Shown piece after piece: positions 1-62,036 of a DNA stretch of 64,000 nt. The notes beneath the pieces were generated by a model. That model saw only the letters and a program-made list of their open reading frames with translations. It ran no database searches and had not been told where the DNA came from. This DNA comes from Carposina sasakii (taxonomy: Eukaryota > Arthropoda > Insecta > Lepidoptera > Carposinidae). Each line of letters starts with the position of its first letter. Position 1 is the first letter of the stretch. The position numbers and the translations under genes are program-made. The stretch spans positions 5,332,001 to 5,396,000 of the forward strand of contig CP053169.1 in assembly GCA_014607495.2 (NCBI GenBank). Reading direction: 5' to 3'.

Positions 1-130
1 TAACTGATCTTGAGAGATTTTTTGCATATCTCAGATTTAATTTTCAATTGTTTTCATACAAAATTTTAAATTAGGAATAAAAGAATCCAAGATTCTTTTT
101 AATCTCGTATCGAAAGTATGCTATAATTAT
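1..130. repeat. MITE family M3, partial copy
   Basis: Shares the block with ttgcatatctcagatttaa and caattgttttcatacaaa seen at 15835-15975, 21159-21290 and 37778-37860. Confidence 0.55.
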
Positions 131-946
131 ATCTGTCAATCAGAATCAGAATCGTTTCAGTAATTTTTGTGTGAAGAAGTAAGAGATATAGAAAACATCT
201 TCCCATTTACATTAACTTCCACGTTAAATAAAAATATTCGTAGATAAGGTGTTTATTCATCCAGGTGGGGTGGTAGGTGTAATAAATAGTATAGTAATAA
301 TCCTACAGAACTCGCGTTTGCAAGAACATTTATTAACTTGCCGCTTTTCGTACCTAGTGTTTTCAGAGTTTTAAACCGTTAAACCCGCTATTTAGTGGAG
401 TCTGATTGTGTTATTAATATTTACAGGTTTTCATGTTTATTTAGTTTGGAAACAAGGTAATTTTAAGAAGGTAATAGCAACTAAATATACCGGCTGTTAA
501 ACCTTATTATAGGCTACCAGGGTAGTCAGACAATGTATCAATCGACGTTCGTTGTCAACTACACTCCCACCAATTAGTGGTTGAAATTAATTACGTGACT
601 TGACGAACTCGCGAAAAATCAGGCTTCCTATTAGAGCAACATGTCGATGTCAAGCTGGTGTCAAACCTCTATCGATTCGAAATGTTACTTTGTCTAAGGC
701 AACAGACCTTTTTTAGGAACGCTTTTCAGTAATTTGAGTTGATAAAGTCAGTTGGATTGGGACAACAAAAATAATAGAGTTTCAATATTGAATATTGTAT
801 TACAGCAAATAATAAAATGTAAACAGTGTTGTTAGCACGGTGGTTCAATGCACCTGATCTATTAGACTAGGAGATAACTGCACTTTTAGTAATCTATGAG
901 AAGGAAGATTCTGGTGTAGAGTTTGGGTACATAATGTGATATCAAT
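131..946. other. Intergenic, no gene seen
   Basis: Mixed AT-rich sequence with no recognisable coding frame or repeat beyond short simple stretches. Confidence 0.5.
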
Positions 947-959
947 TTGAGACGTAGAT

Positions 960-1117
960 ATCTGTTCAGCACGTGTCTACCAGCATATGCAGCGCGGGAA
1001 GGCTACCAGCGAGATGGATGGATGACTCAGGATCGCAGGTATCTGCTGGATGCAAGCCGCTTCCGTTCGCAGTGGAGGTCATTGGAGAGTTCAGCAGTGC
1101 ACTTCTTATGGCTGATG
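960..1117 (+). pseudogene. 3' end of an RTE-like LINE (C-terminal ORF remnant)
   Basis: The plus-strand frame ends ...V-Q-Q-C-T-S-Y-G followed by TGA at 1113-1115. It resembles the V-Q-Q-W-T-A-I-G stop seen in the LINE end at 49552. A frame change separates it from the W-R-S-L-E part upstream. It is short and decayed, with no reverse transcriptase left here. Confidence 0.45.
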
Positions 1118-1616
1118 AGTCAATTTACTAACCACATGCGAACAGACTTTCATTGTTATACAGATGATGATTTTTAACAGCGAAATACTAAATCAGCCTT
1201 GCTGGGAATAGTTACCAAAAATGCAGTAACCTCCTAGGCTATAGGTGCAATCAAAAATTTAAAACATAATTACGTTGATGTTCTACCCCAATGCGCTTTG
1301 AATGAAGTTCCTATGGGTTGTTATTGTTAATGTGGGAAATAAATTCGTTGGTATGGGACCTTGTAATATTAAGCACAGACATAATAATTAAAATGAACAA
1401 TGCTGGCCAAGTTTGGATAGGTACACAATCAATCAAATAGAGAACCCATTTTACTGTTAATTTTGCAAGTATTTCACTACAGAAATACCTATAAAAACAA
1501 CACAGATATCACATGAATGCAAATTAAACCACTTTTACACTACGATTTAGGACAGTTTATATTAGGAAGACTTAAATTTAAATTATTCACAATAATTTAT
1601 ACCATTACGAAATTTT

Positions 1617-1748
1617 TCAATATATAATATATTTCCTCAGATATTTCAGCACCACGAACCACACAAGTGATGAAAATGCAATTAATAACAGCTGTATTTC
1701 AAATTGCACTGGAGCTATTGGAAGTTGCATATTATTCATGTCTGCCAT
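1617..1748 (-). CDS. Small single-pass membrane protein ORF, 43 aa (group beta)
   Basis: ATG in context GAAAAAATGG (A at -3, G at +4), stop TGA. A short polar start (MADMNNMQLP) is followed by one hydrophobic helix (about 17-35) with a tryptophan near its end, then a basic tail K-Y-L-R-K-Y. The helix end matches the 3096-3215 ORF (W, four or so residues, K-x-L-x-K-Y) and the 3576-3764 ORF. It is the last member of the tandem set, 90 nt after the previous stop. Not a family I recognise. Expression is unproven. A viral or repeat origin cannot be excluded. Confidence 0.5.
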   Translation of the reverse strand: MADMNNMQLPIAPVQFEIQLLLIAFSSLVWFVVLKYLRKYIIY

Positions 1749-1838
1749 TTTTTCAAAAATGCTTTAGAAATAATTTAATAATTATACTGGCCTTTTACTA
1801 TGTATCAAATACTATAATATACGATAGCAAATTTGCTC

Positions 1839-1964
1839 CTAACACTGCTTTGAAACAATATTACAAACCATGCAATACAGTAAAGTTAATACAACTAATG
1901 AGCCAAAAACAGTCAAAAGTTCACCCAACGTGAAAACTAAAGGACAGTTCGTTTTCTTTGCCAT
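1839..1964 (-). CDS. Small single-pass membrane protein ORF, 41 aa (group alpha)
   Basis: ATG in context CCAATATGG (A at -3, G at +4), stop TAG. It starts M-A-K-K, has one Cys before the helix, then G-E-L-L-x3-G-S-L-V-x-L and ends V-C-N-I-V-S-K-Q-C. This matches the 2152-2286 ORF without gaps over E-L-L...G-S-L-V...V-C-x-I-V, so the two are paralogues. It lies 47 nt after the stop of the 2012-2146 ORF on the same strand. Function unknown; the predicted product is a membrane microprotein with a short lysine-rich N-terminus. The plus-strand frame over this site is a shadow. Confidence 0.55.
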   Translation of the reverse strand: MAKKTNCPLVFTLGELLTVFGSLVVLTLLYCMVCNIVSKQC

Positions 1965-2011
1965 ATTGGTACAAAAGAAAACTTTGCGAGTTTGCGAGCT
2001 CAAAAGTTTGT

Positions 2012-2146
2012 TCACTTGTAGTTCACATTCATGAAATATCTTCCCATCCAGCTGAAAACTAGAAGAAGAGTCACAAACCCAAATGTTATTATCAGAATGT
2101 GGACAACATCAACTCTGTAGGTGATTATTGAATCCTTTTTTCCCAT
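2012..2146 (-). CDS. Small single-pass membrane protein ORF, 44 aa
   Basis: ATG in context AAGAAATGGG (purine at -3, G at +4), stop TGA. It begins M-G-K-K-D-S, like the M-[SA]-K-K starts of its neighbours, then has one hydrophobic helix (about 16-33) with W34, and a tail ending MNVNYK. Its start lies only 5 nt after the TAG of the 2152-2286 ORF, so the two could be translated from one mRNA. No homologue recognised. Confidence 0.5.
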   Translation of the reverse strand: MGKKDSIITYRVDVVHILIITFGFVTLLLVFSWMGRYFMNVNYK

Positions 2147-2151
2147 TTCTT

Positions 2152-2286
2152 CTAATGATTGCAGTTCACAATATGGCATACCAGGAGGAATAACAGTATG
2201 AGTATCACCAGGGATCCTACTACCATCAACAGTTCATTCAAATCGAAACTTATACTGCATGGGTTTCGTTTATCCTTCTTTGACAT
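2152..2286 (-). CDS. Small single-pass membrane protein ORF, 44 aa (group alpha)
   Basis: ATG with A at -3, stop TAG. The start is M-S-K-K-D-K-R-N-P-C, then comes a helix carrying N-E-L-L-M-V-V-G-S-L-V, and the end reads V-C-H-I-V-N-C-N-H. It is clearly paralogous to the 1839-1964 ORF and more distantly to the 11875-12021 ORF (shared E-x-L-x-x-V-G-S). The N-terminus is lysine-rich, so a cytosolic N-terminus is likely by the positive-inside rule. Function unknown. Confidence 0.55.
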   Translation of the reverse strand: MSKKDKRNPCSISFDLNELLMVVGSLVILILLFLLVCHIVNCNH

Positions 2287-2807
2287 TCTTCAATTGGAGG
2301 CATGATCTTTATTGGGTCCTCCACGATACAACAGGATTATTTCTACATTCGTATGGCGTTTAAACTATTTCTTTCATGTTTGAGCAGGTAGGTACCTTTG
2401 TTTAGTCCATCTTTAATAATGACTTCTTTTTGCAATGATCATAAATTAATTATTATTTACTCGGTAAACATCATCATGCATGATGTTTTGACTTTTTCTG
2501 ATAGCTGACAACTGACACTGATAGACGTAAGTACACTTTTTTATTTTGAAAAAAGGTTTGAAAAAATCTAATTAAGCGCTCTGCTGATTACACACACAAT
2601 TTAACTCCATTTCTATGCTATATTTGGATATAATACCTAAGTACCCATAGTAAAATGTATGTTATTAAAAATATTAACTCTGAATTGAGGACTTGTGCAA
2701 ATGTGAAGTGGACCCTAAAGTTGAATAGGGTAAAGTCAGTTCAAAAGCAAGAAGCTGGTCAGCATTTTAGCCTACACTATTCCGGAGAGCTACCTAGTCA
2801 CTGTATG

Positions 2808-2857
2808 TATTGAATCGGTTATATACATTGTCATTATGTATAATAACCGATTCAATA
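2808..2857. repeat. Near-perfect 21-bp hairpin
   Basis: Arms 2808-2828 and 2836-2857 (core TATTGAATCGGTTAT) pair with a single-base bulge around a 7-nt loop. It lies between the two halves of the small-ORF cluster. It is shorter than usual animal pre-miRNA. Confidence 0.6.
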
Positions 2858-3067
2858 TATTGTCCATGTTTATTTCCTTTTATTCAAAAATATACAAGGA
2901 GTTTGAGAGGACACTGGAGAAAATCCTGGAGATAATTGCAGAATGTTCTACCCTTCCAGTAAGAAACTAAAGTACGGATTCGGAGAATAAATAATATCGT
3001 ACAATGACCCTTCTCATATAATTTGGTACTATAGACAGAAACTTCCTTTCTTTGTTTATATTTACAT

Positions 3068-3073
3068 TTTATT
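3068..3073 (-). terminator. Poly(A) signal AATAAA after the 39-aa ORF
   Basis: A canonical hexamer on the minus strand 23 nt past the TAG at 3096. It would end a transcript carrying the 3576-3764, 3300-3464 and 3096-3215 ORFs if they are co-transcribed. Confidence 0.4.
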
Positions 3074-3095
3074 ATACAGTTTTGGTAGGTATATT

Positions 3096-3215
3096 CTATT
3101 CCAGTTCATACAAATACTTTGTTAACAATTTCATAGCTAAAGCCCATATTACGAATGCAAAAGACAATAATACATACTGTCCAACTGTGTAACTATCTTC
3201 TTCAGTTTTCGCCAT
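3096..3215 (-). CDS. Small single-pass membrane protein ORF, 39 aa (group beta)
   Basis: ATG in context AAAATCATGG (A at -3, G at +4), stop TAG at 3098-3096, and an AATAAA signal 23 nt downstream at 3073-3068. An acidic start (MAKTEEDSYT) is followed by a helix and the end F-V-I-W-A-L-A-M-K-L-L-T-K-Y-L. That block aligns without gaps to F-I-L-W-Y-C-G-I-R-L-L-V-K-Y-I of the 3576-3764 ORF (6 of 15 identical, most others conservative). Unknown function. Confidence 0.55.
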   Translation of the reverse strand: MAKTEEDSYTVGQYVLLSFAFVIWALAMKLLTKYLYELE

Positions 3216-3299
3216 GATTTTAAACCAATTTAACACAACGTAGATTACTGCTTTTTAAAATTTTAATCCAAGGGTCTTCTGCGTTCTTTGCAATGTATT

Positions 3300-3464
3300 T
3301 CAAATTGTACTATCATAACTTATTATTTGTGGGAAAAGCTTATATTTCTGCACAATATTAGCCATATAATGGGTTATAACTGCAAGTCCAACAGAGATGA
3401 GTATAAGCAATACTATTGAATATGCTTCCGGCTCAAGAGATTGTAACACATCTTTGTCTAGCAT
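3300..3464 (-). CDS. Small single-pass membrane protein ORF, 54 aa
   Basis: ATG preceded by a run of A (A at -3), stop TGA. An acidic N-terminus (MLDKDVLQSLEPEA) leads into a long hydrophobic helix (about 15-32), then M-A-N-I-V-Q-K-Y-K and a polar tail. The N-I-V-x-K tail motif recalls C-N-I-V-S-K of the 1839-1964 ORF. It lies between two group-beta ORFs, 84 nt before one and 111 nt after the other. A longer frame exists upstream, but the A-rich context favours this ATG. Confidence 0.5.
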   Translation of the reverse strand: MLDKDVLQSLEPEAYSIVLLILISVGLAVITHYMANIVQKYKLFPQIISYDSTI

Positions 3465-3575
3465 TTTTTTTTCTTTTTCCCCTTTTGCTTGAGAGAGACT
3501 TATTGTATTTAGCAAGATTTATTCAAGTATTCTTTACAAACTCATGTACTTATTGAAAACTGGACCTGTACCTAA

Positions 3576-3764
3576 CTACTTAGACCTGGCTTGCGTAGGT
3601 ACTGTCCTATTTTCATGTTTATTGAAAAAGAAATTACGTATATATTTCACCAGCAATCTTATGCCGCAATACCACAATATAAATGTTAATCCAACATAGA
3701 ATAATTGCTCGGCATTAAATTTAACAAGAAAAATATTTTTGGTTTTCTTCTTGAAGAGCGTCAT
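3576..3764 (-). CDS. Small single-pass membrane protein ORF, 62 aa (group beta)
   Basis: ATG with G at -3, stop TAG. A basic N-terminus (MTLFKKKTKN) leads to a helix at about 20-40 with L-W-Y-C-G-I-R-L-L-V-K-Y, then a basic, glutamine/arginine tail. The helix matches the 3096-3215 ORF. A truncated SINE-A fragment (3786-3845) sits immediately upstream, so its promoter or leader has been invaded. Function unknown. Confidence 0.5.
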   Translation of the reverse strand: MTLFKKKTKNIFLVKFNAEQLFYVGLTFILWYCGIRLLVKYIRNFFFNKHENRTVPTQARSK

Positions 3765-3785
3765 GGCAGCCTTTTGCTATATTAA

Positions 3786-3845
3786 TCATTATAAAATTAT
3801 TAATAAAGAAATGGAAAAAAAATTCACCCGAGTGGGAATCGATTA
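3786..3845 (-). repeat. SINE-A, 3' fragment
   Basis: Carries the tail ttattaataaagaaa...ggaaaaa and the start of the antisense B-box region (cacccgagtgggaatcga). Truncated. Confidence 0.7.
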
Positions 3846-3971
3846 ATCATTATCAATATTTTTTACTTTTTATTTTAATCCAGTAAATAATTGATTAAAT
3901 TGTCAGCTAAACAAATTAATTATTAAGCCTATTCAGAGCGCAGCGAAGACTCATATATCATTAATTTAAGC

Positions 3972-4144
3972 TTATATATTTATTCTTTGCATTGACTTCA
4001 TTATCAGTTTAGCTAAAACCAAAACAATTATATAAATAAATCCAATGGATAAAAACAATACGGGCTTAGAAGTTCTTTGGTGGTAGTATTGTCGTCTGCT
4101 TGGACGAGGTGAAAAGCTCGCTTCTTAAACCTGCCTCTTAGCAT
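3972..4144 (-). pseudogene. Broken member of the small membrane protein set
   Basis: An ATG at 4144 opens a 38-codon frame to 4028 beginning MLRGRFKKRAF and running to LLSP. There the hydrophobic continuation is in another frame (about 4060-3972: V-L-F-L-S-I-G-F-I-Y-I-I-V-L-V-L-A-K-L). Together they resemble the polar-then-helix layout of the neighbours, so a single frameshift near 4060 is the simplest explanation. The 38-aa product might also be a genuine soluble peptide. Confidence 0.35.
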
Positions 4145-4195
4145 GTTTTTATCAATAGAAAGCAATGAGGTTATAGATAGAAAGTCATGTTTTTA

Positions 4196-4377
4196 CATTT
4201 CAAGGGATTTGTGAAGATATTGATAAACTGCCACGTAATGTACGACTTACCGAGGTAATTTACGTAAGTTAGGTATATCATTTCTTTTAGTTACATGTTC
4301 AGAAAACATCTTACGAGAATGTCAGCGGTCTTTACAAAGGGGAAGGTTTAATCAGTGATTTGTATGATAAAATTTTA
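4196..4377 (+). other. Coding-like AT-rich stretch, possible remnant exon(s)
   Basis: The plus strand reads F-Q-G-I-C-E-D-I-D-K-L-P to a GT, then after CTTTTAG at 4290 reads open again (Y-E-N-V-S-G-L-Y-K-G-E-G) to a TAA overlapped by AATAAA near 4388. The implied gap of about 36 nt is short for an intron, so this is weak. Confidence 0.15.
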
Positions 4378-4379
4378 TT

Positions 4380-4960
4380 TCATCACAAATAAAATTATAT
4401 ACAGTCTATTCATACATTTCTGTATTGATTGATTTTCGTTTGTAGTTTTCTATTTCATTAATTTATTTTATTAATATATCCAATTTTTTTTCCAAATTCT
4501 ACATTCACTGACATAATTTTGTTTTTTTATACCCGTATGACCAAATATGACACTATGCTTTTTATTAAAATCCTAGGTTATGGTTAGAAATTATTCGGTG
4601 TTCTACATGCACTGTTTATTATCGTAAAAATGATTGACCAAAAATGTGTTATTATGTTTATTGAATAAAAAATTTATAAATTATCTAAATAATAAAAAAA
4701 AAAAAAGACTATATACCCCTGCATTTTCTTTAGGTACACACGAGTTAAGCTTCCAGTTTTGTCGGCTTCGATTTCCTGTAAATAAAGATAAATAGACCTT
4801 CAGTTTTATTCACTTTAAACTCGCGGAAGTAAAAGGCAACATCTAGACTAAGAGATAGCTGTAGTCATGGAAGTTGATATCAAGGCTGATTCAGTTAATA
4901 AAAAGTGTAATGACCCTCTTCAGTATACTGAAGGTTGAAGTTTTGCGTGCATATGAGTAT
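4380..4960. other. Intergenic, AT-rich, no gene seen
   Basis: Low-complexity A/T runs, including an A run near 4693-4706. No motif or frame stands out. Confidence 0.5.
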
Positions 4961-4999
4961 ACCGGGTGATATTTGGTTGCCGCCGTTTTTTATGGGTAC

Positions 5000-5270
5000 A
5001 TATACATCAAATAAATTACTTATTTATGCAAAAAAAATCTTGGTAGGAAAAGATTTTAATTTTGTTAAAAAAAACAGAAATGTATCATACAGTAACCCAT
5101 AAGCTCATTTAATAACAGGATCACCCGATAAAATTGGCGCGTAAAACAAACATTGCGGATAATCAAATTTAAAATGCATTTTCTATTCTTGTATAACTCA
5201 ACCCAATGGTACTTGTTCGCCATTGGAATATTTGTCTGGCTGTTACTTACACTCTGTATAGTGCATTGCC
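5000..5270. repeat. MITE family M2, degraded copy
   Basis: Shares gataaaattggcgcg, caatggtacttgttc and ggctgttacttacac with copies at 11030-11347 and 50227-50570. The short hydrophobic frame at 5174-5284 is part of this repeat, not a gene. Confidence 0.6.
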
Positions 5271-5322
5271 TACGTACTAACTAATACTAAATCAGCCTTC
5301 CATCGATGACTGTGAAAGAGGA

Positions 5323-5637
5323 TTAAAATTTTGCTATCTCTTTTTTACTCCATTCTGGTAGCACATAGTGTCACCATGATAATATTTTACTATAATTCTC
5401 CCTTACAATATCGTAAACACCTTTACCGTTGCTTTCGCCTTCGTCGCCGTCCATACCAAGACAAATGGTTACTTTATAACTAATACGTTAATCTTCATCC
5501 TCATATTCTCCATCTTTTTTAGCATTCGCCTCTAATTTATACACATTTATAGTACAGTACGTTAGTTTGTCTACCAACTCCCGAGGTAAATAAAAGCCAC
5601 ATTTACAATTACTATTTATTGAGGAACCACAACACAT
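5323..5637 (-). pseudogene. Eroded coding-like frame, two in-frame stops, Cys-rich start
   Basis: One frame from ATG 5637 runs 104 codons to TAA 5323, broken by TAA at 5490-5488 and TGA at 5373-5371. It starts MCCGSSINSNCKCG (four Cys in 13 residues), passes an acidic stretch (KKDGEYEDED) and ends W-S-K-K-E-I-A-K-F. Amino-acid texture is protein-like across both stops. Upstream, 5690-5850 on the same strand also reads open with one stop (D-P-T-E-L-I-G-D-K-T-T-D). I do not recognise the family. A decayed viral or host gene are both possible. Confidence 0.35.
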
Positions 5638-6195
5638 ACTAAAATCACCTTGCTAAAATTTAATACGAATGTTGTTAAACTAAATGCAGATTGTACACAG
5701 CCGGCAATTTATTTACAATTTTTACGAATGAAACCATTCGGGAACCATAAGTATTAGGTAGTTATATAGCCTTTTCCACTTTAAAATTATTAAGAAGTAA
5801 GTCAGTTGTTTTATCCCCGATTAGTTCGGTTGGATCGGCAATATGGTAGGTAGTAATAGGTACCTATGAAATACGGAATACTAAGCAATAAATAGCATGT
5901 GAACTATAAGCTTTAGAAATGTTTGTGTTCAAAAGAGAATGAGAGTAAAAAAAATAGATTTTACTTTGCAATAGGTAATAATAATAAGGTGGTAACATCA
6001 TTATATCTAGTGTTTGTATTAGAGTTTCTCAGATACTTTTTATCAGCGGTTCTCTTGACAATTTTATCAATCTCAAAAGTACGAATGTTAAAATTAAGTA
6101 TATGTAAGTACTAATAAAACTTAGGTGCTTAAACTATATTGTTATGTGTAAACTTTCAATAAGCTGGAATCCTCTAACTCCCATAGATAATTTAG

Positions 6196-6489
6196 CCTCT
6201 CCGTATAACAAATATTGTAACAATATGGCAAGTGACAGAAATTAAAAACCCATTTCATTTACCTATAGATAAAATAATATCTGTTTTAGCTTTAGAAAAA
6301 GCCGTGAAAGAATAAACAGCAGACATGTTCCCGACCGGATCAGAAGAAGCAATTAATTGTATTTTTTGTAGAGAAACTAGTAAATTTAACCTTAAAGAAA
6401 CAAAAATAGCACTAGTAAATAAATATAAAGAAATTAAAGAATATTTACATAGATTGACAAACCAATTACCTCACAGCATAAAAAAATAA
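6196..6489 (+). pseudogene. Eroded lysine-rich coding-like frame with one stop
   Basis: An open frame from 6196 is interrupted only by TAA at 6313-6315. After it, an ATG at 6325 starts a 54-codon frame that begins MFPTGSEEA, holds C-I-F-C, and is charged and helical-looking (K-Y-K-E-I-K-E-Y-L). AT-rich codon use matches the nearby minus-strand fragment. Unknown origin; it may be chance in A-rich DNA. Confidence 0.25.
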
Positions 6490-6571
6490 TAAAGGTATTC
6501 TCTACATTTTCAAGAAAGAAATGTCTAAGTTTTCGTACGTTGTTATTTTTCTACTAATTTACCAGAAAGGA

Positions 6572-6817
6572 TCATGTCTTAAAATAGTTTTGATCCTTGC
6601 TTATATACATAGCAATTGTTAGTACACAATTATACCCTAAAATCTTTGGTGTTAAAGTAATGGCAATAAAGACCAGAAATAAGAATTTTATAAGAAACTC
6701 GTGAGAAATTATATTAGTCAATTTTGGCATAACATGAAATGTGTAATTAGCACTGATCAAAATGATCAAATAAATCAAATTATCTCTTAACAACTTAAAT
6801 ATTTTAACTAAATTCAC
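6572..6817 (-). other. Hydrophobic 81-codon ORF just downstream of the HSD17B12-like stop
   Basis: Starts 40 nt after the host gene's TAA on the same strand, so it would lie in its 3' UTR or be a separate small gene. It encodes two hydrophobic stretches and many Ile/Leu codons, as AT-rich DNA gives by chance. There is no link to the small membrane protein motifs. Confidence 0.2.
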
Positions 6818-6857
6818 AATAAATGACCACCGAATTAGTTAATAGGTAAATAAAAAG

Positions 6858-7187
6858 TTATTGTTTCTTATACTTTTTAAGGGCCTTCCTGCGGCTATTC
6901 TCCATGGAACGGATGACGAGCCAAGTCCCCAAGCTCTTGCTAACAAAGCTGATAGCATTGACGACGTTGGTGAACAAGGCGTGGGGCAGGTAACCGGTGG
7001 TGTGGGATGTGGTGCCAACCAAGGCGATGGCGGACTTGACGAAGTCCTTAGCGGTGGGAGCGAAGAGAGTACTCCGACGAATACCAGACATGTTGGAGCA
7101 AACGAAGCCTGGGAGGACGCATTGGACTATGATGCCTTTCTTGGCGTACTCCATACCGAGACCCTCGGAGAATTTGTCAACAAATGC
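6858..7187 (-). CDS. HSD17B12: HSD17B12-like exon 6 (C-terminal exon and stop)
   Basis: A 330-nt terminal exon from acceptor TTTCCTTGCAG. It encodes residues 205-313, including QCVLPGFV, the SAI..VGTT..TTGYLPHAL block seen in the family, a hydrophobic stretch and a lysine-rich tail, then TAA at 6860-6858. GC content is clearly higher than the flanks. An open frame on the opposite strand here is a shadow. No canonical AATAAA is evident in the 350 nt downstream; TATAAA near 6692-6687 is the nearest variant I see. Confidence 0.94.
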   Translation of the reverse strand, partial: AFVDKFSEGLGMEYAKKGIIVQCVLPGFVCSNMSGIRRSTLFAPTAKDFVKSAIALVGTTSHTTGYLPHALFTNVVNAISFVSKSLGTWLVIRSMENSRRKALKKYKKQ

Positions 7188-10100
7188 CTGCAAGGAAACA
7201 AGCGCTAGAGTGTTTTGCATACGATATCTAAAACAAAAACTAAGTTAACAGTGTTAAACAATTAATAAAAAAAATGTAATGCATGCATACCTTTGAGGCA
7301 GCGTATACAGTCAGTAGAGGGCTCGGAATGATCGAAGATGCTGAACCAATGTTGATGACCACGCCCTTCTTCCTCTCCACCATACCTGGCAGCACGAGAC
7401 TGGTGACTTTGGTTACGGAGACCATGTTCGCTCTAATCAAGTTTGTCACCAACTGCTCCCTGCGAAAAATAAAACTTGATTAGTTTTATTTACATTATTT
7501 CATACATACTCGTACATATACCTATACATTAGCCGCGTGGTGCCGGCAGAGTAGCCTTTGTACCACCCCATGCCTGCTCTTGGGTATCGTACGAGGCGAT
7601 TAAGGGTTTCCGGGAGGCGGGCAGCAGCGCCTCCCGTGCTGACAACATAGTCAGAAAATCACACTGCGGTCACCAACCTGCCTGCCCAGCGTGGTGACTA
7701 TGTGCAAAACCCCCCTGTGTCAGTAGCTTTGTGGCGTGCCCTGGGGGAGGCCTACGTCCAGCAGTGGACTGCAATAGGCAGAAGACGAAGACAAACATAT
7801 ACATACGGATGTGTTACCAAAATGGGGTAGCCAGAATTGTAAGATCATTTAGGAGATTCTAAAGCCACGTTTAGCATAGAATTTAATTACCTATCAATAT
7901 TTTTTACTATAATATTGTAAGTTACGATACGAAAGTTGTTTTATTTTCATGTTTCTAAAAGTGATATTGAAAAGTATACAATATACATGTACACAGTATC
8001 CATATAATAGTCTTGTCCCTATAATGCATAACAATTAACAGTTATGTCACTGTTTGTCGATCTTGTATCAAAGTGGTAATCAATCAAACGCCTGTCTTAT
8101 TTATAACGATCAATTAATTATCCATTACAGTAAGTGGAAATTTGTATGAATTTATGTAGGTAGGTGAATTGAACATCTAAACTGCATCTTCGCAAGTAAA
8201 AGAGGCTCGGTAATAAAATATACCTGTAGATTTTATATTCATTGTATAGATTTTCAACTTCTTTAGTATAAGAGTACCTACAACAACTTTTAGCACAGTG
8301 GTTGAACTAAATAAAAATTGTTAAGATATAAAAAATACATAACAAGTAATTTTATTCAGACGGCATGAAGTTCATTGAGTGAACAAAGATCCGGATTCAA
8401 GTAAGATTCTAAAGATTATCTCATACATAGTGTAACATAAGGGGTATATTAAGCGAAATGCTATAAAATATTGCCTACTACAGAAAACCTATCCATATGA
8501 GACATATTTAATTTTCCAGATAGCATAATGAATTTCTAAATACTTAGCTCAGGAATTTTAATTGAATACAATCATAAAAAAAAAAACATGAGATTTCGAA
8601 TTTTGTTACCTTTCGCCATAGTGGGCTCTTTTCATAGCATTGCTGTTAAGATACCTCTTTTGTTACACCCTGTAAATTTGTCATTAACACCATAGTTTAT
8701 TATCATGTACACTGATACAGTTTAAATTCCCTAACGACCCAAACTTGACCTTAAAACTAACTTAAATCTCCAATCTAAGTTAATCGAATACTAAAAGCAA
8801 GCCAGAACCTCATTTATGGGGCTCAGTGCGTGTGCAAGACCACTAACAGTTGGAAAGGATCATTAGGCAGAACGAGCTATTAGTGGTAATGTCGGGAACA
8901 GTGATTATATTAATTCCGGGGACAAACAGGTCACGTGGGATGACAAGAACATGCCTGAGATCCGAATAGTTCTGTCGGCCTGGAATTGTTTCGATCGGCT
9001 CTCCGTTTTCGCACCTAATCGTCGGCAATGATTGGACGGTGAAAATGGCGTTAGGGCACTGCTGTTAAAGTGTCGTTATTGATAAAGCGACAGGTTGAAA
9101 TCTAATTCTAGCCGCATAGTGGATGAAAATTTGCATCTGCCTACAGCCAAAATTTATTACGGAATAAGAAAGGTGAGATTTTTTAACATTATGCTTTCTA
9201 GTCGAATGTTATTTTAGAAAGAATTTGATGATCCGTAAACTGGAATCTAAACGTGTTTAATAACCAGCAACTTTGACCATAATACTAGGTAATAAAATCA
9301 ATATAACAGCAAAGTAAAAAAATACCTTACACCACCATCCAGCCTTTCATCTATATGAAGAATATCTCACACCTCAAACACGTCGTCGTCGCTCCAAACG
9401 CGACGATATCTATCTTCAAATAATATTTCAATCGAACACTTATTTCATACGGCAATACGCGAGCACCTGGGCTCTTTAGATTCGTTCCGAAACGTCTCGC
9501 GGTGTGCTCCGTTCAATTTCACCGCAGGGAACTTGCAGGATATTAGAAGGTAACAGCCATTGAGAAGCAATTCGGTTTTCGAATGAATTTCGGCTGATAT
9601 ATAGCTGAGCGCTTTGGTATAGGATTATATAAAGTTAGGGTTACCGAGATGAAATAGGTATCTACAAAATTTTCTAAACTTATATGTGTAACCCACAAGG
9701 AAACTAGGTACCCAAATTAAAGTGTGTCTCTTTATAATCATCTTAAAAATAAAAAAACATTGTGCTGAGGGATTCAGCTTTGTTTGCCGAGATTTGGCTA
9801 GTGTATAGCTATCGGAATGAAGAATAACGTTGCCAATATGTAATTTAGAAAAGAGATGGTAAAATTCGTCATCCGAGTAATTGACCCGGTGGCTTAGTGG
9901 TTATAGCGGCTGGCACGGTTTGCAGTGATCGTGGGTTCGATTCCCACTCGGGTGAAGAATTTTTTCCATTTTCTTTATTAATAATTTTATAATCATGATA
10001 ATGTCTAGGACGTGGTAATATAAAGTACAAATACCATATTTCTCTATAGACCCACAATTTTCCAAGTAGATGAAATGAAATGATTAGTTATTGCTCAAAA

Positions 10101-13100
10101 TATGACGCAATAACTTTATTATTACATTATTAGATCAGAGACATGTTTTATCAAAAAACGTGGCATGCAAACATTTTAATTTAAGTATTCAAAAATATCA
10201 CAATAGATAATTATGCCGCGTGGTGCCGGCAGAGTAGAATTCGTACCACCCCATGCCTGCCCGTGGGTATCGTACGAGGCGATTAAGGGTTTCCAGGAGG
10301 TGGGCAGCAGCGCCTCCCGTGTTGACAACATAGTCCAAAATACAAACTGCGGTCACCAACCCGCCTGCCCAGCGTGGTGACTATGGGCAAATACCCCCTA
10401 TGGCAGTCTTGTGGCGTGCCCTGGGGGAGGCCTACGTCCAGCAGTGGACTACAATAGGCTGATGATGATGACGATACTTTCGTATTTCTATGTTGAATAG
10501 AAAGAACAGAAACAGAATACAAAACGCAACTGCATACTACATACTAAAATAGATTCTAGATTTGTTTAAATTGCTGTTTTACTACAAAGGAAAATGTTTT
10601 CATGATATTTATATTTTCGATATCATTACATTCTTTGAGAGTAAATATTTTTTTTACTTAAGTATAATTTATTTTGTTAATCTTTTGGCGAGGCGAGATA
10701 ACATTAATATTACTTCTTAGAATAGAGGTAACAGACATTATTAAGAAGGACGACACCCAGAGCACCAGAAAGGTGACTTTAATTCTAAACTTACGTACAA
10801 GATGAATTAAAAAGATTTAGACATGAGATACCTCGTGAATTAACATCACTGTTTATGAATCAAACAAGAGTTAGTTAAAATTCAAATTACATTCATTTAC
10901 GACATCAAAGCACATCAAAGTGGTCTAGTGACGAAAACTTTGAGGGTGAATACCCAAGGTTCTAAGTTGATAAGAGTAATATCATTCGATCTAGGCAGAT
11001 AAAATAGTTTAGTTCGTTTAATTAGCCCTTAGATAATGACCTAAAAATAAAATTTCAACCAAAAGATGATTTAAAAAAAGTTGCCATCAAAAAAGTTCAA
11101 ATAATTGATCAACCCTAATGGAGAGTCGCAAGTGATCCAAAAAACAGAAATATGTCACACAATAACCAATAAGCCCATTTAATTAGTCATAGATGCGCCC
11201 GATACAATTGGCGCGGAGAGTAAAAAATACTGATAATCAAATCAAAAATATAATACATTTCCTGCGAGTAATAACACTGTCGTATAACTCTACACAATGG
11301 TACTTGTTCAGCATTTTAGTATTTGCCTGGCTGTCACCCACACCCTGTATAATACTTACTGAAACTTAATCGGCTGAAAAATCATCTTATGGTTTGACAA
11401 AGTTAAAACTGTGTAATATTTTTGACTTTATGAAATATGTTAACGTGGACGAGGGATCTCTTTCATGATCCTGCAGTTCTGGTTACCCCATTTTGGAAAC
11501 ACAGCCGTGAGTAATTTAATATCTTATTTAATATATTAAAACAAAGTCGCAATTTGGACGTTACACGTAAAGGAGAAGAATTGGCTGTACATCAAACATG
11601 TTTTTTTGGACTACAGAGAAAAGTCTGTCAAATAAAAAAAAATTAAAATGTCAACATAAAAACAGGCCAAGAATCAAAATAAAAAATTCTGTAATAAAAT
11701 CCATGTAATATGGTCTCTGAGGAAACCATAATCAAATAGAATGCAGTTTAACAATCTTAACAATTTATTGGCCAGCAATAACCGAATAAATCAATATATT
11801 CTAAATGTGAAATAAATACAAGCTTACAAAATGAACCTAAATAGTATCTGAATCAACACAATGTTCCTGAAATAATGGAGAAAATTTGCAAAGGTGCTAC
11901 TGAAAACTGCCAATTTAGAACCTCCATAGCTGAAATGCTGATAATAGTTGGATCGATATCACTGCTGGCATTTCTAGTATTTATGATATCTAACATTGCT
12001 GAGAACCGTCCGTGCGTTTAACTGCAACTAGGCTGGAAGACGAGATATCCTCGTTTCCAATAAAGTGTACACCCTAATCTATTGTGTTTCTTTACTCAAA
12101 TGTGTTAGTTTTCAATCCTGCAACCATATTCAGGTAAGTATAAGTTACCTTAAAATTTCTTTCGAAAAAAGTATAATATAGAAACATTATTAATAATTCT
12201 CTTCATATTCTGGTCAAAATGCATAAAGTCTACAACTAGAATTCTTTGAGCGCCGATTTTTTCAATGGACATAATATAGCCTATCTGAAGACACTATCTT
12301 GATCAACTTTCAGAAAAAGACAGCATTAACATTATTCTTCAGATAGGCTATAGCTGACCATTGGAATAATTGGTGCTGTGATGGTAGATCGTGCAATTTA
12401 ATGTAAAAACGTAAAAAATATTGATCACAAAACTATATTATTCCGACATTCACTGTTATCTCCCGGTCACCATGGTTACCGGTGGCAGGCTAAGCTCTAG
12501 TAACGCAAGCCAGCCGAAGGATGGGCGATATACATCCTACAGTGCTAAATATATAAGTTAAAATCTTGTGGTTATTCAAATATTTATATCTTTACATTAG
12601 CATAAAACATTATTGTAATACGAATGTAATCGACATTACAATACAGTCGGTTCAAAGTTTATTTTAACATGCTCACTCCACACAACAAGAAGTGGACTGA
12701 CGTAAGGTGTTGTCCCACATACTTTATAAAGATCCACATTTACTTTACAATACTTACATATATCATAATATCACGCCTTTATCCCTTACGGGGTAAGCAG
12801 AGCACCAAGGCGCGATAGTACCACATGGTGCCACTTCTGACCAAATTTGAGGGTATAGTTGAGATGTACACGTAAAAAATAGTTTAATTACTATGTAAAT
12901 TACATAGGCTATTAGGTACGAAAGCAGTTTTTATATATTTTAATGTGATCCTAATGTAAGCTAGCTTGCCTTAAATTCCGTAACTGATTATATAGTCCTT
13001 CACTGGAACTGGGTTACTGAATAGTCTTTCAATAAAAAAAATATATCGATAAAATTTATGCACACAATAATCGACGTACCTACCCATTTTATTAATTACT

Positions 13101-16100
13101 AGAGGTCGCCTACGACTTTGTCCGCGTGAACTTCGCAATTATCTTTCTTTACCGTTCCCGTCAGAATTTCGGGATTTTCTTAGAGGACATCTACCTTCGT
13201 ATTACCTACCTAATTTCATTTTCAGTACTCAATTAGTTTTCGAGATTTCGTGATGAAGTCACATTTCGCTCTTACAATATAGATTACAGACATCACATAT
13301 CATGTTACAAACACGTAATAAGTATAAACTATATTTGTTATATCTGTCACCATTTTATAACGTGTGAAGTGTGAATACATTGATTTTCAATTGGCAATAG
13401 AACAAATAGATTTTATACTACAATCATGTGATGTTAATAATATACATACGTACATTGAAGGATCAGACATTTTACTGTCCGGTAAACAAGTGAGTATGAG
13501 GTTCAGTCCAATCATTCTGAATCTTTTGTAGATATCTAATGTATCGCTCGGTGACCTAATAAGCAACTATAAAGTATTAAAACTAATAGAAATATCAAGC
13601 GAACATAATAAACTCACCGTTCGGGCATGTCCAGGTAGTACTCCGGGTAAGGATAGGATATACCGACATTGTTGACTAGTGTACCGATCTCAAGATCAGT
13701 GATGTCTTTGGAAATTTTCTCGTAGATGTGCTCCCCTTCACTGAAATCCGCTTGAATTATCTTTGTAGCTACTTTGTAGTCCTTTTCTGTTGAATAAAAT
13801 ATAATTGAATTGGTAAGAATGGTCTTTTCTTTAATTATGGCATAGTAAGTAAGTACAATAAATTGTAATATATTCATCTCTTAGACGATGAGCTAACAAG
13901 TAGTCATTTCTCTTTTGAATTGGGCTCCCTATGCTAAACGTGGCCTTGGGATTTTGGAAGCGCAGCCGTGTGCATTATGTGTGTAAATTCTAGTTTGCGG
14001 CTATAAAAAACGCCTCAACCAGGAATAGAACCAGGGTTATCTAGAAGACTGAGTCAAGCCTAAAGAAGCCTCGCATCGTGTCTCTGATTTTTGTGGTCAA
14101 GTCAATATACCAGTTTGATGATCTCCGACCGTATTTCGGCCAAGGCGACCAATCTCTACGGGGATTGGCCAGGTACGCAGGAGATATTATAGTGCACAAG
14201 CGTGTGCGCAAACACAGATGCACTCTCTATTCCGTTACTCTCATAGTCCGATGGGACGGAAAGCCGACACGACCGGAAAGAGATCAGGCGCAGGACCAAC
14301 GGTTTTACGTGCTTTCCGGCACAGGCCCGTGACTGGGATCGAACTTACGCCTCCCGCTTGGAAGGTGCACGTCTTAACCACTGGGCTATTACCGCTTATA
14401 TACCAGTACCGCACAATTATACCATTTCTTATAAAGTATCTAAGTAGTTTGTTATATTTAGTTAACCAGAGTAAGTAATCAAAATAAATGTCTGCATTTA
14501 AGGAACTTAAAAAAGTGTTAGGCACGAGAACCTTTGGTGGTCAGATGGCCCAGTTATTAGGTTAATAAACCCTAATTTTGAAATTAAAAGCACTTTTATA
14601 GTTCACGATCACAAGCCGTGAATTTCATGTCATAATGCCAAGGTACACTACAAATATTCAATTTAAGACCATAATTATTTCACATATGAGATAACCCGAG
14701 TTGACATTTAAGATAAATGTTATGCTTCCATACCGCATTTCCTCAGGTACAAATATATAATTATAATAAACTCAGACGGCGAATCGTGTCACAATCTAAT
14801 TTACGTAAGTTTTAAAGATGGAAACGACCTGTCAAACGTTCAGTTAAATGTGAGTTAAAAGGTACTCGTACTTTATGTACGGCGCTGAGTTAAAAATACA
14901 TACATACATATAATCACGCCTTTATCCCTTACGGGGTAGGCAGAGCACCAAGGGCCGATAGGACCACATAGTTAAAAATGTTTACTATAAAACATATCTA
15001 TATTGAGTCCATAATTATGGAGAACTTGTGGACGCCCGTGACTTCATCCGCGTGGACTGCAGAAAAAATAAAATGTCGAAATTATCCGGGATAAAAAGTA
15101 GCCTATGTGATCCAGGGTGTCAGCTAAATCCATACCAAATTTTATTAAAATCGCTCCAGCCGTTTTTACGTGAAAGAGTAACAAACATCCATCCATCCTC
15201 AATACTCACAAACTTTCACGTTTCTAATATTAATACGAGTAGGATATTTACTTACCTATTTCTTCGGCGGTAGTTTTAAGTTTGTCTATTGATCGGCTGA
15301 CTAGAACAATATCACAGCCGCGCGCAGCCAGCTAAAACAATAAAAATACAATAAATATTTCAAATCTTACATTTTCATGTATTTAGTTCTATCTATACAG
15401 GGTGTGTGTGATAGCCAGGCAAATACTGAAATACCGAACAAGTACCACTTTTGATTCTTTATTGGGCTTGATCAGTATTTTGAACTTTTTTGGAACCAAC
15501 TTTTTTTTTTAAATCATCCATAGGTTAAAATTTTGTTTTTAATCAGTACTTCTTAAATGAACCACACAATTATTTTCCTGAAAAAAGGTAGAAAATGTCG
15601 GAAAATTTTGGAATTCTCCTGCGAAAATTTTCAGTTATTTTCACCTCAGAATCATGGTCTGAACTCGCGCTATCACTTCCACCCTGTATATGAATTGATA
15701 TAATATTTTTTTATTAATTAATTTAATAAAACTTCAATCATAATATGCTCAACCAACGGAAAAACTACAGGCGCGATAATTAGGCACATATAATTAATAA
15801 TATTTTAATTATATTTATTTAGAGTAACGGCCAATTTCAATACTAGAGAGAGATTGAAAAGAAACTCGGATTTTTTATTCAAAATTTGAAATTTTGTATG
15901 AAAACAATTGAACATATAATCTGAAATAGGTACATATGCAAAAAATCTCTCGAGATCGTTATTGAAATTGGTTGTAAGTAGAACTAAAAACTATCCAATG
16001 GAACTAGTGGTATACGCTTCTATCGACTGGTATACCTTCGGAGTTAAAGTATAATATGATAATAAAACTGTTTCTATACCAATACACTGTCCGGTACTGA

Positions 16101-19100
16101 ACATAAAGTATAGAAAAGCTAGCTTTACTCCGAAGCCTATCGCCTGCATCGGGTATGTTGAAGGGATTTACTGTATATTTATGGTCTGTGATAAAATGCT
16201 GGCAGGACCATAGCGCAGATATTCTATAACTAGATATTTAAATATCTAGCGAGGCGCTGTAGTTAGATTTATACATACATTTACACGAGGTGTGGGGTAA
16301 GCACGAACCATTTTACGCGGCGCGGCATAACGCTAGCGACTCGCTAGCAAATTCTATGGGAATTGACAGTTTGACGCTAGCGTTACGGACTATCGAGAGG
16401 TTCGTGCTTACCCCTTTGTTTACACAATGGGGTGTCAAAACTGCAGGATCACGAATAAGATCCAAGAACCACGCAAAGCGAGGCTAGGTTTAAAAATTAA
16501 ACTAGGTACAGTTACTCATTGTCTGAGAGAACATCTCTGAGTTCCTTAGTTGACTCTTACGGCATGCACGGAAGGAGATGCAGCTGATGTATTCTAGTGA
16601 ATATTCAATACTTATGTAGCTTTGTCAGAAAGTCAATTTTAAACTTGATTTTGTTAATTACAGCCTTGTCAAGTAAAGTTTTAGTCAGGGGACCAAAGAA
16701 GAACTTTTAACCAGTTTTATTTATTACTAGTGGACGCCCGGGACTTCGTCCGCGTGGACTACAGAAACACAAAATGTCGAAATTATCCGAGATAAAAACA
16801 TTTTCCCAGAAAAATCGTATATGTTAAGTGGGACCTGTCACAATATATTCCTGAAAACTGCATTGAAATCGGTTCAGCAGATTAGCGTGCACAAACCGAC
16901 AAACAGACAAAAATTCCAAAAATTATTCTTTTGGGTACTATTGCGTTGATAAAGGTCTCCTATAATATTTTTATATCATATATCTTCCATGTACAGACAG
17001 CGATCCGTTATGTACACTTTATAATATGTTTAGATAGACTTTAGTTAAAAAATTATTTGTTGCACTGTCAGAAATAAAGCAAGTACTCTAAGATCATCAT
17101 CAGATGAGACACAGGAGATGAACATATTTTGTAATGTTTGAAGCAATAAAGTAAATATGAAGTATAAGTATGTATGTACATTATTTTCGGACTTTAAACG
17201 CAAAGTGTATTTATTCATTGCTCTCGAGGTTACATATTTCTGGCGTTGTTTCTATAGTATTGTATGGAAATTTATTTAAATAATCTGAAAATCTTGACAT
17301 GAATATTGGATGTATCATGCTACAAGCCAGTTAAAAATTATGTTTTTCTCGTTTTTTTTTAGTAACAAATAGGCTAGGTGATACAAGCCTTCGTCGCCGT
17401 ATAATTTTAATCAAAAGTTATGTAAATATATTACCTCTAGCTAAAAAGTAAGTATCATTGAGTTCATGATCATGATCTCTGATCGTATTTCGGTCAAGGC
17501 GACCAATCTCTACGGAGATCGGCCAGGTACGCAGGAGATATTATAGTACACAAGTGTGTGCAAAAACACAGATGCACCCTTTATTCCGTTACTCTCATAG
17601 TCCGATGGGACGGAAAGCCAAGACGACCGGAGAGAGATCAGGCGCAGGACCAACGGTTTTACGTGCATTCCGAGGCACGAGCTAAGTGACAAATTTGCAA
17701 CATTAAAATCTGTACAAGAAATAAATTCATTGGTACAGGCCCGAGAATGGGATCGAACTTACGCCTCCTGCTTAGAAGGGCTATCACCGCCCATAAATTC
17801 ATTAAGTGCATAAAGTACATCTGGCCTGCTATGCTGGATAGGATAGGTACCACATTTTGGGAATACATATGTGTGTATGTAGGTATTTTTCATACGGGTA
17901 CTTATTTATATTTTCTTACCTCTCTCGCGTATTGTTTTCCTATTCCATCCGTGCATCCAGTTATTACTGCAACAAAAATAAATCCATATTAATTATTGTA
18001 TTTTTAGCCGATTTAGACTGTCCAATACCGTTCCAATAGACAAATAAAGTAACTTTTATTCAAACATGGGCTTAAGGTTGTGCCGCTTAGTTTTGGGCGA
18101 AGCGTCAACTACTAAGGCTCAATTTACACTGCCGCGGAATGGAACGGAAGCTACTTTTTGCTACGTAATCGTATAGCATAAAGAACTTTATATCAATCGT
18201 GTAACACACAGATTAAATACGAGCCTAAATTGGACGCGCGTCTTCCGCGAAATCCTCGCGCATTCTTGTAAATACTCCGGTGATTTGACGTATCGGAATT
18301 TGGAAATTGACGCTGATGATATAAACTTCATTATGCTATATACGATTTCGTTGCAAAAATTAGCTTCCGTTACATTCAGCGATGTTGTAAATTGAGCCTA
18401 AGCGATAAATGAGCGGTAGTCGTAAGCTCGCTGACAGCAAGCTGTCTGCTGTGTTATTTCATAGAAATAAAAAAATTCTGATATCTTCTAGTAGTAAACT
18501 CAATAACAGAACATGTTACCTTTAATAAAACATAAAGTAAATGTAATATACGTCTTATTTTATCGTAAAAATCGTATCGTATCTTACAGGAATTAAAAAA
18601 AAGGTTATTTAGAATTTCTTTATGACTGTAAACTCTAAATCTATTAGGTAAAGTATATCTATTTTTGTATATAAATAAACACAAAACTAGAAATCCATGA
18701 GGCAACAGACACATTACTCTCGATCTCTAAAGCACGTGCGCTACCGCGAATTCGACCTTGTCCTAACGGTACTAAAGCGGTTTTCCTTGAACTTGCCCGA
18801 TCGAGGTGAAAGCGGCATCCATTGATGGTCACTGGTACTGTTTTGATGTAGGAATTTAAACTTTATTCATATTAGCTAAGGTTATATATGTGATTGTAAT
18901 GTGTTATGTTTATACTTTCAGTTTAAGGTAGTGTTTTATTTTTCTCTGGCTTAGATTTTTTATATGGACGTATACAGAGGCCGTATTCATTATCATTTAT
19001 GGTACCAAGTAAGCATTTACAGAATCTCAAGAGTAAACGGCCCCTTAGGCTATATATATTTCCAGAATAGCTGGGCCGTCATAGCGGCCGTACCTATGTA

Positions 19101-59048: not shown

Positions 59049-59760
59049 TTAATTTGAACATGACGGTCCATCCCCGTCAAGTTCGCACAGATTATCATCA
59101 CGGTCACATGTCAGCATGTCATTGGTAATGTCATTCGCAGGCATTCGCCTAAGTCTGTCATGTGCGTACTTATAGGTTCTATTGGAATTAAGGGCTTTAA
59201 GAACATAACGATTACCTTCAAGTACCTCCGATACCCTAAAAGGACCTCTATACTTCGGATCAATTAATCGAATTTCGAGTTCACCTGTAGTTACACGAGT
59301 TTTTGGCAAACCTGTTGTAAAATAACTGGAATATTCACCTAAAATAGTTAAAAGATCTGACTTTTTACAAGAGGGTATATCTGTGTCAACATTACTAAAG
59401 TCGTTACTGATACTAGAATCGGTTAAAACGTCACAATTTAAAACTGTCAAATTATTTTGTTTTGAAATGCTAAAATTATTTGTTGACAAGTTAATAACGA
59501 AGCCTTGACTCAATATTTCACGACCTAGCATAATATCACTACGCATATACACATCGGGTAAAACATGTAATAAAAGTTCTAAACAATAATCATTAATTTC
59601 AACATTACACAGTATTTGCTGGGTGCTGAATACACTGGTTTGACCAATTCCCGTTAGAGAGACAGTTTTAGCAATTCTTTTACCATTGAAACTTGATGCA
59701 ACGCTTTCTTTTATTAGTGAACACTCAGCACCCGAATCAAAATGAAAATCATAAAATCTA
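59049..59760 (-). pseudogene. Second retroelement fragment: protease fused to integrase C-terminus
   Basis: Directly after the stop at 59763 the same frame reads F-D-S-G-A-E-C-S-L (a second protease active site), then V-Y-M-R-S-D-I-M-L-G-R-E-I-L and a linker to I-R-L-I-D-P. There it joins, still open, to K-Y-R-G-P-F-R-V-S-E-V-L and K-Y-A-H-D-R-L-R-R-M-P, the GPF/Y-type end of Gypsy integrases. RT, RNase H and integrase core are deleted at the D-P junction. Sequence differs clearly from the first protease, so it is another subfamily. Confidence 0.8.
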
Positions 59761-59762
59761 CC

Positions 59763-61283: not shown

Positions 61284-61442
61284 AGCAGATCCATTAGGTC
61301 GGTTTCTTTTTAGGTCGGGTCCATCACGATAAATACTTGATGAATAACTTCTCTTCAGGAACGAGACAGCCTTCAGTTCCTTTTGTAAATGGTTACGCGT
61401 CTTGATGTCAGTCGTTATAGCAATCCTCTGAACACGTGGCTC

Positions 61443-62036
61443 TTATTTTGAAATATGAGCTAAGACAGTGGCTATTGCTATCTGTTCTGTAGTCAGTCCA
61501 TTCCACCTTGCCATTAAGGATGTTATGAGGGTAGCGGCGTATGAGGCCAGGCACTCGTTATCTCTCGGTTTCTTGTCGTGCATACTGATGAGAAAGGAAG
61601 CAGCAGTTTCAGGACAGTCATACCTTGCTACGAAAAGCTCCTTAAAATCGGCCCACGTCATATTAGGAAACGATATTGAAGACAGCCAAGATGATGCTTC
61701 GCCCTTGAGTGCGTGGCTTAACGCGATCATCAGAGAAGATCCATGGCGATGTCGATCTGTGATACACATGTCCGCGGTCGTTATCCAAGCTCGGGCGTCG
61801 ATGTCTCTTTTCTCTGGGTCGAAATCAGGAAGGCGAATAGAGTCCGAAGATGCAGGTAGTTTTATTGCTTGCACCAACGCCAGAAAATTTTGATTTTGTT
61901 GCTCGAAGAGAAGACGTCATTTTTCTTCGCTCGAGTCACTATTTGAAGCACGTGTTTCATGTGGGTGATCCGGGTTGCATCCCACGCCTGATGACGTAGA
62001 TGGGTCGAGTGGCGTGCCGTTAGGTGTGTCCGACAT
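61443..62036 (-). pseudogene. Retroelement gag, starting inside the terminal repeat
   Basis: The ATG at 62036 lies within repeat Y, 45 nt from its inner end. The frame runs MSDTPNGTPLDPSTSS and on to a TGA at 61919-61917 (codon 40), then reopens in the same frame (R-L-L-F-E-Q-Q-N-Q-N-F). It carries a retrotransposon capsid region (A-W-I-T-T-A-D-M, L-K-G-E-A-S-S-W-L, W-A-D-F-K-E-L-F) to TAA 61445-61443. Frame continuity with the next ORF shows one gag-pol frame with two point stops. Confidence 0.75.

Follow-up and report, generated by a model that had tools for sequence, protein, structure and literature searches.

The window analysed here is a stretch of 64,000 nucleotides (nt) from the lepidopteran Carposina sasakii, and a search of the species' own genome placed it at C22:5332001-5396000. 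Close to its left end, in AT-rich DNA (32-34% GC), lies a tandem cluster of very small open reading frames (ORFs). Seven intact ORFs of 39-62 amino acids (aa) and one broken ORF, all on the minus strand, were confirmed at the coordinates at which a first-pass annotation had listed them. Along the minus strand they were labelled X (broken), G, F, E, D, C, B and A. In X (3972-4144), the frame that starts with an ATG (4144-4028) disagrees with the hydrophobic frame, which runs to 3972. The intact ORFs are G (3576-3764, 62 aa, containing KFNAEQLFYVGLTFILWYCGIRLLVKYIRN), F (3300-3464, 54 aa, with one hydrophobic segment), E (3096-3215, 39 aa), D (2152-2286, 44 aa), C (2012-2146, 44 aa, N-terminus MGKKDS), B (1839-1964, 41 aa) and A (1617-1748, 43 aa). 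The ORF given previously as 2012-2179 exists, and its start was revised: we read C from its second ATG, at 2146, because this codon has a better context (agaagaaATGG) than the ATG at 2179; the start then falls 5 nt past the stop codon of D. The strongest single result of this study is that the D-C pair is present twice in the genome, on two chromosomes.

Hydrophobic ORFs can arise by chance in AT-rich DNA, and random DNA of the same composition yielded 0.27 of them per 2.7 kb. The density was quantified for ORFs of 36-75 aa that start with an ATG, have an 18-residue Kyte-Doolittle mean of at least 1.8 and lie on the minus strand of positions 1501-4200. Six ORFs were observed, and not seven, because G (1.73) misses the cut-off. 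Among 1000 dinucleotide-preserving shuffles, 761 contained no such ORF, 218 contained one, 20 contained two, and the maximum of three occurred once. As a reference for similarity between the ORFs, random hydrophobic ORFs with matching composition were compared in 40,087 pairs, and the maximum score among these was 54. The B-D pair scored 96, which was reached by none of the random pairs; the scores of A-E (54), E-G (48) and A-G (43) were reached by 2, 17 and 78 pairs, respectively. Pairwise shuffle tests gave z 10.9 for B-D and z 5.9 for E-G (0/600 each), and the best values for C and F were z 2.3 (with A, 20/600 shuffles) and z 1.2. The similarity groups are statistically real. These results uphold two claims of the first-pass annotation, namely that paralogy is visible by eye and that the locus holds more than random AT-rich DNA gives, and they modify a third: the motif W-x4-K-L-L-x-K-Y, proposed for one group, is exact in E, and A and G fit only the looser form W-x4-[KR]-x-L-x-K-Y. 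An origin by chance is contradicted by the density, by the family scores and by the duplicated two-ORF unit described below. If the alpha and beta ORFs are taken together, chance is a very unlikely source, whereas for F and X alone it is conceivable; as an account of the locus we assign it a negligible probability.

Two families, alpha and beta, were delimited using leave-one-out profiles and 300 shuffles per member. Besides the cluster, the members include a further ORF of the window, H (11875-12021, plus strand, 48 aa), and two ORFs on another chromosome, J and K. The alpha family comprises B (z 14.4), D (z 12.0), J (z 9.3) and H (z 7.4), and the beta family comprises A (z 7.0), C (z 6.2), E (z 7.6) and K (z 9.7), each with 0/300 shuffles reaching the observed value. 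G was weakly beta-like (z 3.2, 1/300), and F scored z 0.3 with the alpha profile and z 1.4 with the beta profile. The placement of C in the beta family follows from its similarity to K. Seven residues are invariant in the alpha family (in D numbering, M1, C10, L20, G24, S25, L29 and C42). An alpha member is followed by a beta member in D-C, B-A and J-K. The upper half of the cluster could be read as two further units, X-G and F-E; this stays a mere possibility because both G and E resemble beta members and F belongs to neither family.

The genome (399 Mb, 31 contigs) was searched with D, J and K. D retrieved itself, B and one place on contig C24, with 34% identity and E 4.4e-4. This place holds tandem ORFs at C24:6523427-6523693: J (MGKSQSCGLQFNLVQLLSVIGSVVLLMMMFVVISYMISCKSPP) is followed, 6 nt past its stop codon, by K (MCDEQYKIDFFQLLIIGFAFIAFLMVVSFMCNYQRRARVCRNT). 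J matches D with z 11.1 and K matches C with z 7.5 (0/600 shuffles each), and K is the closest relative of C that was found. J-K thus repeats the order of D-C on another chromosome, with a gap of 6 nt versus 5 nt. A blastn comparison of the J-K locus with the window cluster returned only two 12-nt words. Because the unit has been kept while its DNA no longer aligns, an old duplication is indicated in which both ORFs are still open. A search with J retrieved J, D and B, and a search with K retrieved only K; no further family member was present in the 10 kb that adjoin the window on its left. J occupies 1489-1620 of one fetched C24 locus. In another, near J-K, the minus strand encodes at about 3634-3840 a domain of the DNA-binding MADF type (E 3.2e-12), and Pfam matched nothing else in the scanned frames within a few kb around J-K (one minus-strand frame per locus was left out).

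Selection on the protein sequence was assessed with a codon test, in which 2000 neutral simulations were run per pair and those that reached the observed amino-acid identity were counted. This was the case for 0 simulations with B-D, 1 with J-B and 4 with K-C. In B-D, 19/36 amino acids are identical at a nucleotide identity of 0.53, and 14 of these 19 are encoded by different codons. The ratios of nonsynonymous to synonymous differences per site (pN/pS) were 0.39 for B-D, 0.45 for J-B and 0.32 for K-C; the synonymous divergences (dS) are unusable as numbers because several pairs are almost saturated at their silent sites. DNA alignments of paralogous coding and flanking pieces were mostly at shuffle level, the exceptions being the coding pieces of D and H (4/300) and the flank downstream of B against H (12/300). 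There is protein-level constraint in B-D, J-B and K-C. These data bear on the idea that the ORFs are decaying relics, that is, a once functional family of which most members are now pseudogenes that are open by chance. It would accommodate the broken ORF X, seven codon comparisons that are compatible with neutral drift, and a beta-like segment without an ATG downstream of H (12154-12246, see below). It is opposed by the seven intact short frames with their purine at -3, and by silent sites that have changed far more than amino acids in the three constrained pairs. Because short frames survive some drift, decay is conceivable for E, F and G. Overall, we regard general decay as improbable.

The start sites and spacings of the ORFs were inspected for features of translation. 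All seven intact cluster ORFs have a purine at -3. Five begin with M-[GSA], and four of them carry a G at +4, namely A, B, E and, when its second ATG is taken as the start, C; in D this base is a T. These two features had been claimed for all of the ORFs and for most of the M-[GSA] ones, respectively. The intercistronic gap between D and C consists of the 5 nt AAGAA (2147-2151), the stop codon of B and the start codon of A are 90 nt apart, and the D-C and J-K gaps (5 and 6 nt) are as short as the spacing by which multicistronic small-ORF (smORF) genes are recognized. The five short gaps between ORFs (337 nt in total) contain one ATG, compared with 6.3 expected (P 0.013, for gaps chosen post hoc), whereas the 809 nt that separate E from D contain 17 ATGs, which is a normal density. 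The scarcity of ATGs in the short gaps fits ribosome scanning or reinitiation. RNA structure in four folded gaps between ORFs did not exceed chance (best z -1.11, matched by 32/200 shuffles), and a scan for bacterial-type promoters remained at chance level and is irrelevant here.

An ordinary tandem cluster would consist of separate monocistronic genes for fast-evolving, lineage-specific membrane peptides, each equipped with a promoter and a poly(A) site of its own, and the close spacing would be incidental. H, which is solitary and has an AATAAA (at 12059) 37 nt past its stop codon, agrees with such an arrangement, as does E: 22 nt past its stop codon lies an AATAAA of the minus strand (at 3073), beyond which the 809-nt gap continues. 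It is difficult to reconcile with D-C and J-K, because gaps of only 5-6 nt leave no space for a promoter between the paired ORFs and are too small for a terminator plus promoter, and because the alpha-beta order with such spacing recurs on another chromosome. We consider independent monocistronic genes rather unlikely.

Relatives outside the genome were sought with searches that are weak for peptides of about 40 residues, whether directed at Pfam, PDB, viral contigs or protein collections. With all 10 intact members, Pfam gave nothing that reached the cut-off and only weak matches to unrelated families; the best of these, K as Nlp36, was rejected (E 0.0042, 17.4 bits versus a cut-off of 27.3). 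PHROGs gave only weak matches for eight proteins (best E 0.024). In a collection of 5.8 billion proteins, profiles of B+D+H and of A+E+G+C+F, that is, without J and K, returned 7 and 9 candidates, none of them at E up to 10; in a control, the same collection yielded many lepidopteran proteins for HSD17B12. PDB profile searches gave nothing above chance level (two matches, with E 1.7 and 0.67, and otherwise two lists without entries), and the profile of B+D+H had no match in prokaryote genomes. Nine records of phage DNA matches were dismissed, as they represent one 62-base stretch with 84% identity. A literature search, to which subscription journals were largely out of reach, retrieved no report of such a microprotein family.

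These searches also concern capture of accessory proteins from a virus or retrotransposon. The sORF2/FAST-like proteins of insect LTR (long terminal repeat) retrotransposons are small and have a single transmembrane segment, like the cluster members, and sORF2 elements are known in Lepidoptera (PMC11952523). Furthermore, sORF2 has an N-myristoylation motif, MGxxxS/T (PMC11952523), which is matched by the N-termini of C (MGKKDS) and J (MGKSQS) and is lacking in the other eight of the 10 intact members. According to that source, the sORF2/FAST-like proteins are 63-107 aa long, reside in gag-pol elements and carry polybasic and amphipathic motifs; the C. sasakii ORFs differ in length (39-62 aa) and in context. 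When positions 1-15002 were scanned in six frames, Pfam gave no gag or pol match at E up to 0.01, no repeat pair of at least 40 nt flanks the cluster within 1-13000, and three scans of viral contigs (with alignment A2, H and G) revealed no relative. A comparison of the cluster DNA with the rest of the window and with three loci of about 10 kb, which bears on the question of whether the frames belong to a repeat consensus, uncovered only one shared element, of about 57 nt; within this scope, the cluster does not form a repeat consensus. Because viral relatives were not found, an intact host gene adjoins the cluster and no DNA match goes beyond this element, host genes are favoured over viral capture, though this is not proved. 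A capture of FAST/sORF2-type proteins seems to us highly improbable.

The shared element lies at 3788-3842, between X and G, and recurs at 9937-9996, 20074-20121 and 21677-21733. It is probably part of a tRNA-derived short interspersed nuclear element, because it is next to Rfam tRNA matches. The adjoining host gene (6858-26180, minus strand) encodes an HSD17B12-like very-long-chain 3-oxoacyl-CoA reductase. Its six coding exons, read by hand, join to a 313-aa protein with Pfam support, it has the same strand as the cluster, and the cluster, counted from X, starts about 2.7 kb downstream of its end. Within the best 65 of 2069 database matches, all named ones are lepidopteran; among the matches listed, the nearest has 78% identity and the nearest named one 76%. 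The match list by itself thus identifies the host as a lepidopteran. The gene provides a synteny anchor that eases checks for orthologues in other sequenced Lepidoptera. H sits antisense in its large intron. The segment without an ATG mentioned above (NFFRKKYNIETLLIILFIFWSKCIKSTTRIL, 12154-12246, plus strand) lies 132 nt downstream of H. Among 3502 six-frame segments it was the best non-member match of a five-member beta profile, with an E of 0.27 that is not significant; a stricter profile (C, K and A) omits it and gives a better rank to a segment at 46550. It is possibly a decayed beta partner of H. A hydrophobic ORF at 5174 on the plus strand was rejected as a family member, as it is part of a dispersed repeat with a copy at 11.1-11.4 kb; the copies at 5069-5260 and 11139-11351 contain this ORF (YNSTQWYLF...), and similar peptides are encoded on the minus strand at 15471-15370 and, weakly, at 50273-50100. 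An LTR retroelement with three adjoining open frames is situated about 55 kb from the cluster (59049-61916, minus strand); it has Pfam matches to reverse transcriptase and a zinc knuckle, and a gag match below the cut-off.

Taken together, the real similarity groups and the three constrained pairs support the reading of the locus as a microprotein locus that the first-pass annotation had offered; the alpha-beta order, the bicistronic spacing, member H and the copy on another chromosome go beyond it. We propose, with a probability of roughly 0.6, that the ORFs belong to a lepidopteran family of bicistronic, tandemly duplicated genes for single-pass membrane microproteins that act in pairs. Each unit would be transcribed into one mRNA with two short ORFs, alpha first and beta second, each encoding a protein of about 40-60 aa that spans the membrane with one helix; alpha and beta are perhaps ancient paralogues. 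The second ORF would be reached by leaky scanning or by termination-reinitiation across the 5-nt (D-C) or 6-nt (J-K) gap. Both peptides are predicted to enter the same membrane and to work as a pair: a common membrane target is suggested because two membrane helices would be made in a coupled fashion. Most likely the pair would serve a larger membrane protein complex as a small partner in its regulation or assembly. AlphaFold2 predicted one long helix each for D (residues 16-43) and A (residues 13-42), with mean predicted local distance difference test values of 80 and 76, and only the helix is trustworthy in these models because they were built on 3 and 5 sequences. Tandem duplication may have given rise to D-C and B-A, with G, F, E and the broken X perhaps representing copies that are older or have decayed, and dispersal of the unit to H (alpha), about 8 kb away, and to J-K. 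A bolder version is conceivable, in our view with low odds: the whole 2.1-kb array may be expressed as one or at most two multicistronic mRNAs (G-F-E and D-C-B-A) that specify up to seven microproteins serially, and the alpha and beta products may form a mixed helix bundle. If so, this would be an operon-like animal gene that arose as an alpha-beta unit was duplicated repeatedly, and an undescribed, expanding lepidopteran set.

Several observations weigh against the proposal of bicistronic pairs. When the genome was searched with D, H was not recovered, and the search with K did not recover C although E values up to 10 were admitted, so that the copy numbers of the members are lower bounds. 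F and X match neither family profile, and G is only weakly beta-like. The kinship of alpha and beta is only suggestive: a comparison of the two profiles with hhalign gave P 0.0012 and a probability of 20%, and with the profile of the other family z was 6.4 for J, 4.4 for A (0/300), 2.7 for B, 1.6 for D and 1.4 for E, with several members near zero (C 0.4, G 0.2, K 0.1 and H -0.2). The codon test leans positive because codons were aligned by amino-acid similarity, and it was non-significant for J-D (179/2000), D-H (320/2000), K-A (633/2000), A-E (299/2000) and E-G (438/2000) in the same run, and for B-H (153/2000) and A-G (999/2000) in an earlier one. Since AATAAA occurs 1.95 times per kb as background, its presence near a stop codon is only weakly informative. 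Lastly, an upstream ATG at 2303 with a purine at -3 opens a 17-codon ORF (2250-2303, minus strand) that overlaps the start of D; it could be a regulator of D or a sign that the start of the mRNA, or a splice site in it, is closer to D.

Among systems that invite comparison, the tal peptides are not known to be transmembrane, and Pfam holds models of the SMIM4/C12orf73 families. Pfam searches with the 10 members gave no match to Sloth1/Sloth2 (SMIM4/C12orf73) at E up to 10 and hence no hint of orthology, although this is a weak test for short peptides. Paralogous smORFs on one transcript have been described for tal/pri (mlpt) and for the Sarcolamban locus (both cited in PMC9681215). The closest architectural parallel is Drosophila sloth1/sloth2 (CG32736/CG42308; human SMIM4 and C12orf73): according to PMC9681215, two distantly similar single-transmembrane microproteins are encoded on one bicistronic transcript with a 5-nt gap, like that of D-C, sloth2 is read in a different frame from sloth1, and reporters favour leaky scanning. 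The sloth peptides have 79 and 61 aa, compared with 39-62 aa here, and sloth is one conserved pair, whereas the C. sasakii microproteins form a multi-copy family. The SERCA regulators sarcolamban, sarcolipin and phospholamban are small single-helix membrane peptides (PMC4807881), as is predicted for the members here; nothing in the data points to muscle or SERCA for the latter. Neither sarcolipin nor phospholamban was among the Pfam and PDB matches at E up to 10, again a weak test for short peptides. The locus is probably best filed under multicistronic smORF genes, with a known architecture and no sequence relative found.

Bicistronic genes are relatively rare in eukaryotes; in Drosophila, 196 are annotated, 44 of which contain two homologous ORFs (PMC9681215). 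An alpha-beta pair that has been amplified and copied to another chromosome would offer internal replicates of the coupling of two peptides on a shared mRNA. Moreover, it would demonstrate that in insects expanding gene families can consist of very short membrane proteins, a class easily overlooked by annotation.

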